DNA of 64,000 nucleotides. Source: Thermoplasmata archaeon. GTDB taxonomy: Archaea > Thermoplasmatota > Thermoplasmata > Lutacidiplasmatales > UBA184. The notes under the pieces were generated by a model that saw only the letters and a list, made by a program, of their open reading frames with translations, was not told the origin of the DNA and searched no databases. Positions 1 through 44,198 of the stretch are shown here, in pieces. The position numbers were made by a program, and so were the translations under genes. The stretch's first letter is position 1, and each line of letters starts with the position of its first letter. Where the stretch lies: NCBI GenBank assembly GCA_021816865.1, contig JAKAWX010000007.1, forward strand, positions 1 to 64,000, written 5' to 3'.

Positions 1-122
1 TCCCCGTCTCGAGGGCAGATTGTCCGCGTGTTACTGAGCAGTGCGCCGAGGGCTTACCCCTCTCGACTCGCATGGCTTAAGCGAACTCCAATAGCGGTGC
101 CCGCCGGCAGGATCAACCGGAT
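1..122 (-). rRNA. 16S rRNA gene, 5' end only (partial)
   Basis: Read on the minus strand from about position 122, the sequence matches the conserved 5' end of archaeal 16S rRNA: a TCCGGTTGATCCTGCC block, then the helix 3-6 region including GCTTAAGCCATGCGAGTC and AGTAACACGCGGACAATCTG. Only about 120 bases lie inside the window; the rest runs off the left edge, so the 3' end and anti-Shine-Dalgarno sequence cannot be seen. No tRNA or 23S gene lies upstream, so on this side the gene starts its own transcription unit. Confidence 0.96.
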
Positions 123-405
123 TTGTTAGCACACTTTCGCGTGTGCGGGAATACGCTCGAATCGTGACCGATCTCGCTGACTGGCGGAATTGCTCTTTGT
201 TCTTGTCTTGAGCTAACTATCGCGTACGTTCTCGTACGTCTCCTCCGTCAGTCCCGAGAGGTCGCTCCCCGCTTGGGGGAGGGGTTCTCGGGGCTCCACG
301 CCCTGCTGGGCCATCTGTGGCGTCGCCCGGAAGAGTCCGGTTCATGCGTCCCCGGCTCGCCGTGGCGGCGTCGGACGGACGGGCTTCCGAAGAACCCCGC
401 TCGTT
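123..405 (-). other. 16S rRNA 5' leader (pre-rRNA)
   Basis: About 280 bases separate the predicted rRNA transcription start from the mature 16S 5' end. The stretch has no convincing gene and is less GC-rich than its surroundings near 180-225. Two perfect inverted repeats are visible: CGTACG at 223-228 and 233-238 with a 4-base loop, and GCACAC/GTGTGC at 129-134 and 141-146 with a 6-base loop just before the mature end. Archaeal 16S leaders normally pair with the 3' trailer to form a bulge-helix-bulge processing stem; the trailer is outside the window, so this cannot be tested here. Confidence 0.6.
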
Positions 406-9802: not shown

Positions 9803-10144
9803 TCAATCTCCTCCGACCGACGGGACGATCAGCCGGTAGGCGATCGCTTCGCCGGCGGTGGCGCTGGGGCGTCGGATGCGGACCAGACGACCGACGAGCT
9901 TCTCGCCGCCCGACCGCGCGTCGTCGTACTTCGGGTCGGTCCTCAGGCCGGGGTCGCTGACCAGGATCTTCGGCAGGCGCTCCGACGGGGTGCCGAGGGC
10001 CTCGAGGACCTTCCCCGACTCCTCCTCCGTGAGGATCTCGTGCGGGGGAGCGAGGTGGTGGGCCACGAACGGTCGCGGAGGGGCGGCCGTTTTCTCGGGG
10101 GCGGCTCGCTTGCGGGAGCGACGGGTGCGATTGGTGGGGCTCAT
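9803..10144 (-). CDS. rpoH: DNA-directed RNA polymerase subunit H
   Basis: The C-terminal 80 residues match RpoH, the archaeal homologue of eukaryotic RPB5: [31 protein letters not shown] and [24 protein letters not shown]. The ATG at 10144 gives 113 aa, with about 30 extra N-terminal residues rich in Arg, Lys and Pro compared with the usual 75-85-aa family. No TATA box is visible between this start and the 3' end of the tRNA-Lys gene 22 bases upstream, so rpoH and the polymerase operon may be transcribed together with that tRNA. Confidence 0.94.
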
Positions 10145-10179
10145 GGGGATCTCCGAGGAGCGGAACGGGCCCGGGGGGA

Positions 10180-10217
10180 TGCTCGGGGCCGTTCCGCGGG
10201 TCCCGCGGCGCGGCTCG
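10180..10217 (-). other. tRNA-Lys intron 2, T-loop position 59/60 (38 bases)
   Basis: The T-stem GGGGG/CCCCC is the outer helix. T-loop bases TTCG (54-57) pair with CGAG of the intron (U-G, U-A, C-G, G-C) to make the central helix. The bulges are AA^C and CA^T. The inner helix is GAGCCG with CGGCCC, with one A-C mismatch. Inside it is a second hairpin of CCGCGG repeats closing on a 3-base loop. Removal of 38 bases yields the standard T-loop TTCGAAT. The geometry of two 3-base bulges at opposite ends of a 4-bp helix is exact. Confidence 0.85.
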
Positions 10218-10257
10218 TTCGAACCCCCGACCACCTGGTTAAAAGCCAGATGCTCTT

Positions 10258-10286
10258 TGTAGGACCGGCGAGCGAACCGGCCGGCC
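10258..10286 (-). other. tRNA-Lys intron 1, D-loop (29 bases)
   Basis: The splice motif is a bulge-helix-bulge. The central 4-bp helix is TAGG (D-loop bases 17-19) with CCTA near the intron 3' end, flanked by 3-base bulges TT^G and CA^A. The inner helix is GCCGGC paired with GCCGGT (six pairs including one G-U). Cutting at the carets removes 29 bases and joins the D-loop as AGTTAGGTTAA. The outer helix is the tRNA D-stem, separated from the central helix by a small asymmetric interruption, so the motif is slightly relaxed on that side. Confidence 0.8.
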
Positions 10287-10341
10287 AACCTAACTGAGCT
10301 ACGGGCCCGATCCCGTTCCGGACCGGTGGGACCCGGGCGCC

Positions 10342-43928: not shown

Positions 43929-43948
43929 GCGTAGGGGAGGCGGGGGAA

Positions 43949-44032
43949 CGCTGAGGGGGAGATTTGAACTCCCGTGGCGGAACCGCCACCAGCTTTCAAG
44001 GCTGGCGCCTTGCCGGACTAGGCTACCTCAGC
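43949..44032 (-). tRNA. tRNA-Ser(UGA)
   Basis: The gene is 84 bases with no intron. The acceptor stem is GCTGAGG/CCTCAGC with discriminator G. The anticodon arm CCAGC-CTTGAAA-GCTGG gives anticodon UGA. A long variable arm (TGGCGG/CCGCCA) marks a class II tRNA. The T-arm is GGGAG-TTCAAAT-CTCCC. CCA is not encoded. Confidence 0.95.
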
Positions 44033-44058
44033 GCGGTCGCCGCTAGCGGGGGCCGTAG

Positions 44059-44095: not shown

Positions 44096-44198
44096 TGCAG
44101 GTGCCGGGAGCTCCGCGGAGACCCTCGCGCGGGGCCTCCGATTCGAACCCGGGTGGTCAGCTTGGAGGGCTGACATCCTACCACTAGATTACACCTGC
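44096..44198 (-). tRNA. tRNA-Gly(UCC) with a T-loop intron
   Basis: The precursor is 103 bases. The acceptor stem is GCAGGTG at 44192-44198 paired with CACCTGC at 44097-44103, with discriminator A. The anticodon arm TCAGC-CCTCCAA-GCTGA gives anticodon UCC. The T-stem is CCGGG with CCCGG, but the two halves are separated by extra sequence. Removing 44110-44141 gives a 71-base tRNA with the standard T-loop TTCGAAT. The D-stem is a short ATC/GAT, as in other tRNA-Gly. There is no canonical 37/38 intron. Confidence 0.92.
44110..44141 (-). other. tRNA-Gly intron, T-loop position 59/60 (32 bases)
   Basis: The T-stem is the outer helix. T-loop TTCG (54-57) pairs with CGGA of the intron (U-A, U-G, C-G, G-C) as the central helix. 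The bulges are AA^T and GC^T. The inner helix is CGGAGGCC with GGTCTCCG (eight pairs, one G-U), closed by a 9-base loop. Cutting at the carets removes 32 bases and restores TTCGAAT. This is a complete bulge-helix-bulge motif. Confidence 0.88.

Follow-up and report, generated by a model that had tools for sequence, protein, structure and literature searches.

Introduction

Introns at non-canonical positions of archaeal tRNAs are known from several lineages. In Crenarchaeota and Nanoarchaeota they occur at sites that include 20/21 and 59/60, carry junctions of the bulge-helix-bulge (BHB) type and may number several per tRNA; both sites stand on the list of known non-canonical intron sites given in one review (PMC4090602). 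tRNAs with multiple introns have been reported from Crenarchaeota, Nanoarchaeum, M. kandleri, M. thermautotrophicus, Korarchaeum and ARMAN (PMC4033280), and the Asgard Atabeyarchaeia and Freyarchaeia are described as having many non-canonical and multiple introns, with 92-95% of the tRNA genes in their genomes interrupted (PMC11291895).

The range of introns has been linked to the type of the splicing endonuclease EndA. The reviews tie multiple or non-canonical tRNA introns to heterotetrameric or loop-bearing endonucleases (PMC4090602, PMC4033280), and the lengths given for the insertions that confer broad specificity are 11 residues (ASL) and 15-18 residues (CSL). Efficient removal of relaxed motifs is ascribed to (alpha-beta)2 and epsilon2 enzymes only (PMC6379350), homomeric enzymes are described as acting on canonical motifs only (PMC4033280), and Euryarchaeota with alpha4 or alpha2 enzymes are stated to have single introns at the canonical site (PMC4090602). 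Still, the alpha'2 enzyme of A. fulgidus, reported to be limited to canonical BHB motifs, can act on a full pre-tRNA and excise its bulge-helix-loop intron at 37/38 (PMC6379350). Homodimers are said to cut bulge-helix-loop motifs, and the Ferroplasma EndA to cut minimal BHBs (PMC8707768).

For Thermoplasmatota, no title or abstract among the open-licence papers searched describes introns of this kind, though GtRNAdb may list them. In the study of Lutacidiplasmatales genomes, tRNAs were predicted by tRNAscan-SE 2.0.5, and the word "intron" does not occur in the main text (PMC9287336). Here we describe a tRNA-Lys(UUU) gene with one intron in the D-loop and another in the T-loop, located in a 64,000-nt stretch of contig JAKAWX010000007.1 of a Thermoplasmata archaeon (hereafter the window). 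A sequence-only reading of the window had proposed this split gene and regarded multiple non-canonical introns as documented mainly in Thermoproteales. That view understates the range, which takes in Thaumarchaeota, Nanoarchaeota, Korarchaeota, ARMAN, some thermophilic methanogens and Asgards.

Results

Anatomy of the tRNA-Lys(UUU) precursor

Read along the minus strand from 10308 to 10166, the precursor consists of GGGCCCG-UA-GCUC, a 40-nt D-loop, GAGC and an uninterrupted anticodon arm with CUUUUAA, followed by the variable loop, GGGGG, a 45-nt T-loop region, CCCCC, CGGGCCC and a final G (Table 1). Excision of 31 nt and 38 nt gives a 74-nt cloverleaf tRNA-Lys with the D-loop AGTTAGGTA and the T-loop TTCGAAT. 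A canonical tRNA is restored on removal of the two inserts, as is expected of archaeal BHB-type introns, and ARAGORN calls the spliced sequence tRNA-Lys(TTT). The place, strand and identity given in the sequence-only reading were thus confirmed, and so was its 38-base T-loop intron. Its D-loop intron of 29 bases was rejected in favour of 31 nt, because only the latter length yields the D-loop form of the intronless orthologues, whereas 29 would leave that loop two bases too long. The site numbers 20/21 and 59/60 are our own count.

Table 1. Features of the interrupted tRNA-Lys gene, its downstream neighbour and a second interrupted tRNA gene in the window.
Feature	Coordinates	Strand	Basis
pre-tRNA-Lys(UUU), 143 nt, three exons	10166..10308	-	ARAGORN on the spliced form; match of covariance model R1
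Exon 1: acceptor 5' arm, D-stem 5' arm, D-loop to U20	10288..10308	-	Agreement with intronless orthologues
D-loop intron, 31 nt, site 20/21	10257..10287	-	Orthologue comparison; covariation
Exon 2: A21, D-stem 3' arm, anticodon arm, variable loop, T-stem 5' arm, T-loop to A59	10218..10256	-	
Anticodon UUU	10241..10243	-	ARAGORN call of the spliced sequence
T-loop intron, 38 nt, site 59/60	10180..10217	-	Orthologue comparison; covariation
Exon 3: U60, T-stem 3' arm, acceptor 3' arm, G73	10166..10179	-	
rpoH (RNA polymerase subunit H/Rpb5), gene after tRNA-Lys	9803..10144	-	Pfam PF01191; NCBIfam subunit H below its cut-off
tRNA-Gly(UCC) with a 32-nt T-loop intron at about 44110-44141	44096..44198	-	Precursor missed by ARAGORN; Rfam below gathering cut-off

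Two observations concern the surroundings. The tRNA-Lys leader (10309-10325) and trailer (10161-10166) look complementary (GGAAC/GTTCC) and possibly form a processing stem, and the contig starts inside an archaeal 16S rRNA gene (positions 1-123, minus strand, Rfam RF01959).

Splice motifs and folding

At the T-loop junction, a 4-bp central helix UUCG/CGAG (U-G, U-A, C-G and G-C) is flanked by the 3-nt bulges AAC and CAU, which makes it a near-strict BHB with one G-U pair. The D-loop junction is looser. Its central helix UUAG/CUAC has three standard pairs and a U-C mismatch at the exon end (the first pair); the 5' site lies in a 3-nt bulge, while at the 3' site AG faces the three bases before the D-stem, so that an internal loop (2x3, or 3x4 if the mismatch is counted) stands in place of a pure bulge. 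The D site therefore lacks a 4-bp helix between 3-nt bulges and fits the relaxed bulge-helix-loop type. The proposal that both junctions fold as a 4-bp helix with two 3-base bulges held for the T site and failed for the D site. Among 86 distinct D loops, the first pair of the central helix is standard in 70 and non-standard in 16.

When the window precursor was folded alone, the lowest-energy structure contained the T central helix (4/4 pairs), but neither the D central helix (0/4), the D-stem (0/4) nor the T-stem (0/5, in a shifted register), and it lay 8.6 kcal/mol below the intended fold. RNAalifold on 21 genes recovered the T-stem (5/5), the T central helix (4/4) and most of the D central helix (3/4), with the D-stem at 0/4. 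The predicted D motif is thus based on consensus and covariation, and is in conflict with the single-sequence fold, in which it does not appear.

Conservation and covariation

Over the 210 pairs formed by 21 equal-length genes, identity was 95.9% for exons, 66.4% for D introns and 54.5% for T introns. Covariation was assessed by permuting the 3' partners among distinct loops (86 D and 85 T loops, 2000 shuffles). The D central helix was paired at 95.3% against 76% in the shuffled sets, the D intron stem at 88.8% against 62% and the T intron stem at 73% against 49%; none of the 2000 shuffles reached any of these three values. The near-invariant T central helix scored 98.5% against 97.7%, a value reached by 27 of 2000.

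Because relatedness inflates such tests, they were repeated on sets of mutually dissimilar loops (21 D and 29 T representatives). Again none of 5000 shuffles reached the values of the D central helix, the D intron stem or the T intron stem, while 1430 of 5000 reached the T central helix, which hence has no support from covariation. A stricter cut (10 D and 12 T loops) gave 0, 0 and 1 of 5000 for the same three measures. When the test was confined to the close clade, support held for the D central helix and for the T intron stem (0/5000 each), the D intron stem was weak, little above the shuffles (39/5000), and the T central helix was uninformative. Pairing has therefore been kept despite sequence change in the D helix and in both intron stems across the loops of the class.

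Orthologues and distribution of the two introns

The RpoB encoded in the window matches that of Thermoplasmata MAGs and is 90% identical to that of Ca. Lutacidiplasma silvani, whose genus is placed by NCBI taxonomy in Ca. Lutacidiplasmatales, Thermoplasmatota. The host is accordingly a member of Thermoplasmatota, as had been supposed from the gene set, and probably of the order Ca. Lutacidiplasmatales; Ferroplasma belongs to the same phylum. Eighty RpoB loci were returned, of which 12 were dropped, most of them with little or no upstream DNA (one dropped locus, L093, parsed with both introns), and 68 were examined. A tRNA-Lys(UUU) gene lies no more than 1500 nt upstream of rpoB in 52 of these relatives, and none was seen within that distance in the other 16. 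All 52 rpoB-linked genes have the D-loop insert and all but two (L049 and L094) the T-loop insert; L068 contains a third insert in the anticodon arm. An assembly artefact was rejected, as the same layout recurs in other assemblies at 84-96% RpoB identity.

A wider survey employed a pattern of the middle exon, which is blind to D- and T-loop introns and matched 95 of 140 class genomes; the remaining 45, with no match, could carry introns inside the pattern, as L068 does. Loci were fetched for 90 of the other 95 listed rows, giving 91 orthologous class loci with the window. Eighty-five were parsed by program and six were read by eye, namely five missed by the D-stem rule of the parser and one tandem copy. 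Both introns are present in 54 of the 91, the T intron alone in nine, the D intron alone in two and neither in 26. Aligned with its relatives as the sequence-only reading had advised, the gene therefore shares both introns with 53 of the 90 other class loci. The 117 distinct precursors parsed, a set outside which all six eye-read loci fall, comprise 85 with D and T introns, one with D, anticodon and T introns, two with D only, five with T only and 24 with none.

Introns were found in 12 of the 16 family codes sampled (f1, f2, f3, f7, f11, f15, f16, f20, f56, f57, f59 and f61; none in f4, f5, f6 and f8), and the carriers include MAGs labelled Methanomassiliicoccus sp. Outside the class, all 30 loci fetched among the matches listed (four family codes) are intronless; the looser pattern used there matched at least 358 of 389 phylum genomes, class included. 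These intronless genes have D-loops such as AGCTAGGTA or AGCCAGGTA and the T-loop TTCGAAT or TTCGAAC, and the spliced window tRNA-Lys agrees with them at both junctions.

Detection of the precursor

ARAGORN, with or without its anticodon-intron option, did not call the unspliced precursor at 10166-10308, and the Rfam tRNA model listed it neither at the gathering score nor, in the genome search, with E allowed up to 10. When a covariance model was made from nine other tRNAs of this genome, with tRNA-Lys excluded, it matched exactly 10166-10308 (E = 8e-10, on a rough calibration). Together with the class loci that have both introns, this independent match shows that the precursor signal exceeds chance. 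In the genome of AcS3-62 the Lys gene (L029) also contains both introns; as tRNAs for all 20 amino acids were reported for AcS3-62 (PMC9287336), tRNAscan-SE probably finds this doubly interrupted gene.

Search for another lysine tRNA

A second, intact tRNA-Lys(UUU) gene had been named as an outcome that would reduce the interrupted one to a pseudogene. A pattern for tRNA-Lys with UUU or CUU, at up to three mismatches, revealed no second Lys gene in the 83%-complete genome. At three mismatches this pattern also matches one Arg and one Ile tRNA, and it would miss a gene with an anticodon-loop intron. The anticodon half of tRNA-Lys(CUU) was found in one of 31 family genomes (G471, two matches, a candidate) and was not found in the other 30, the reversed control pattern matching 0-3 times per genome. 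Judged from these searches, the genome probably has no lysine tRNA gene besides the interrupted one, although a further gene split within the searched pattern, or missing from the assembly, would have escaped notice. In this family the UUU tRNA might be the only one to read lysine AAG codons.

Other interrupted tRNAs of the genome and its relatives

The Rfam tRNA model gave 27 matches in the genome at E up to 10, which were taken as tRNA genes, and the T-intron model from nine tRNAs added tRNA-Lys and tRNA-His (the latter read by eye). The resulting 29 genes are a minimum, since the assembly is 83% complete and 150 of 2288 candidates were scored in the model search. Fourteen of the 29 are interrupted. 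A T-loop intron is present in 11, i.e. Lys, Glu CUC, Arg UCU, Arg UCG, Gly GCC, Gly UCC, Asp GUC, Ser GCU, GGA and CGA, and His, with anticodons assigned partly by eye, and a D-loop intron in three, i.e. Lys, Met and Arg GCG (the last two by eye and fold). In Leu UAA (L018) the intron was placed in the anticodon loop by ARAGORN. Two other ARAGORN placements were rejected by eye and fold: L013, called an intron-bearing tRNA-Asp(GTC), was read as tRNA-Met with a D-loop intron, and the intron of L020, tRNA-Arg(GCG), was moved to the D-loop. The tRNA-Gly(UCC) gene of Table 1 adjoins a tRNA-Ser(UGA) gene at 43948-44033.

Among the nine tRNAs with T introns, all three with G57 have four standard pairs in the central helix, the fourth being G-C, while the six with A57 show A-G (five) or A-A (one) at the fourth position and none has a standard pair there. 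An A-U pair is apparent by eye at this position in tRNA-His (L273).

With the same model, T-loop introns were seen in at least 13 tRNAs of a genome of the same genus (G271), at least five of G040, at least two of G256, at least one of G083 and at least three of G426 (Lys included), in a search that left 32 of 54 loci unparsed (15 of 17 in stretches L314-L330 among them) and misparsed L294. Other combinations were also noted. In the congeneric G271, a tRNA-Leu(UAG) gene (L313) parses with D-loop and T-loop introns, and in G426, from another family of the class, two tRNA-Arg genes (L281 and L325) parse with anticodon-loop and T-loop introns.

Splicing enzymes

One open frame with EndA domains was found in the genome, and it has two PF01974 matches. 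Read from an internal GTG it encodes about 353 aa, in which PF02778 and PF01974 each match two stretches, giving two N-terminal domains and two catalytic ones. A tandem repeat of the N+C unit within a single chain is the mark of the alpha'2 type, and the protein aligns over residues 33-336 to the alpha'2 EndA of A. fulgidus (1r0v, 2gjw). The best-scoring solved chain was 5x89 (E = 6e-35, matched in three pieces), which we take to be the M. kandleri EndA.

The structure 3p1y is presumably a CSL chimera, consistent with its 10 extra residues relative to 1r0v. These residues, taken for the CSL insertion, lie between YGS and the LSL strand of the catalytic unit. At this CSL/ASL site the EndA studied here reads YGSRVGDRLELSL and is as short as that of A. 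fulgidus. No CSL/ASL insertion was seen in 30 EndAs extracted from 31 loci (our genome and the best-scoring 30 of 129 genomes). EndA domains occur in 129 of the 140 class genomes, mostly as two matches (one match in 15 genomes, three in three). RtcB is also present in our genome.

Discussion

Taken together, the sequence data make a working, doubly interrupted tRNA-Lys(UUU) gene by far the best reading, and we hold it with high confidence, because the spliced product fits the orthologues, the exons are conserved, the stems covary, a second Lys gene was not found and the splicing genes are present. Two non-canonical introns in a Thermoplasmatota tRNA-Lys, as first suggested from the window itself, are thus well founded.

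The introns would be of the archaeal, protein-spliced type, situated at 20/21 and 59/60. In the folded transcript, each would form a hairpin that stacks on a short helix to which the exons contribute bases. The two-repeat EndA, acting as a homodimer, may then cut both ends of each hairpin, at bases predicted from the motifs, and RtcB would join the exons, in an order we can only suppose, to give a normal tRNA. From its distribution, the double interruption seems to be old in the class Thermoplasmata, and to have been kept or partly lost by descent.

Several points of this scheme resemble systems described elsewhere. The sites, the BHB-type junctions and the occurrence of several introns per tRNA are shared with Crenarchaeota and Nanoarchaeota; here, in contrast, the host is one of the Thermoplasmata, a two-repeat EndA stands in place of their heterotetramer, and the D+T pair recurs in tRNA-Lys throughout the class. 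The Asgard lineages resemble our genome in having many such introns outside Thermoproteales, yet nearly all of their tRNA genes are reported as interrupted, against 14 of 29 seen here, mostly at the T-loop site. M. kandleri and M. thermautotrophicus likewise have multiple introns in euryarchaeal tRNAs (PMC4033280), but the M. kandleri EndA is described as a heterotetramer lacking special loops (PMC6379350), unlike the two-repeat chain found here. Among the enzymes, the A. fulgidus alpha'2 EndA also has two repeats in one chain and no specificity loop; its reported range is confined to canonical BHBs save for the one bulge-helix-loop intron, whereas the introns of our genome include looser motifs.

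This discrepancy raises the question of the enzyme acting at the D site. The introns may be real and the D intron may be removed by something other than, or besides, the two-repeat EndA, such as a helper or an unseen EndA subunit. The D motif is not a strict BHB, the broad-specificity loops are absent and the genome is incomplete, all of which speak for such a factor; against it, a sole open frame with EndA domains was found in the genome, and homodimers are reported to cut bulge-helix-loop motifs (PMC8707768). We consider this explanation unlikely.

Much less probable still is that both inserts stay in place and give the mature RNA enlarged D- and T-arms. The inserts do form hairpins, but the junctions keep the geometry of the archaeal splice motif, the D helix and the intron stems covary, the spliced loops match those of the intronless orthologues, and EndA and RtcB are both present. 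An enlarged T-loop is moreover expected to disturb the contact between D-loop and T-loop. The least credible reading of all is that the gene has decayed into a pseudogene with two insertions and that another tRNA decodes lysine: this would suit the failure of ARAGORN and the Rfam model to see the precursor, the incompleteness of the assembly, from which another gene could be missing, and the blindness of the Lys pattern to anticodon-loop introns, but it is opposed by exons that stay nearly identical among relatives while the introns do not, by interruption of the same two sites in 54 of 91 class loci and by the second Lys gene not found in the genome.

For the doubly interrupted working gene, then, the novelty should be stated with care. 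Multiple non-canonical tRNA introns are already known elsewhere; what is new is the lineage, the depth of conservation and the type of enzyme, and the finding is of interest because of these three. A tRNA intron of a known kind is thereby found in a group where the reviews cited did not expect it, and since this counterexample to the association of enzyme and intron types occurs in 12 of the 16 sampled family codes of the class, that association becomes directly testable. In practical terms, the tRNAs of these genomes are under-counted by scanners that do not search for non-canonical introns.

A possible, if rather doubtful, extension is that, across the class, a two-repeat EndA lacking both CSL and ASL has acquired broad specificity in some other way, so that T-loop introns could spread to more than one third of the tRNAs seen here and a sole tRNA-Lys with two introns could persist. 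Such long retention would suggest a use, for instance in ordering the modification of the D- and T-arms or in delaying folding. If true, this would break with the accepted view that the type of enzyme and the range of introns go together.
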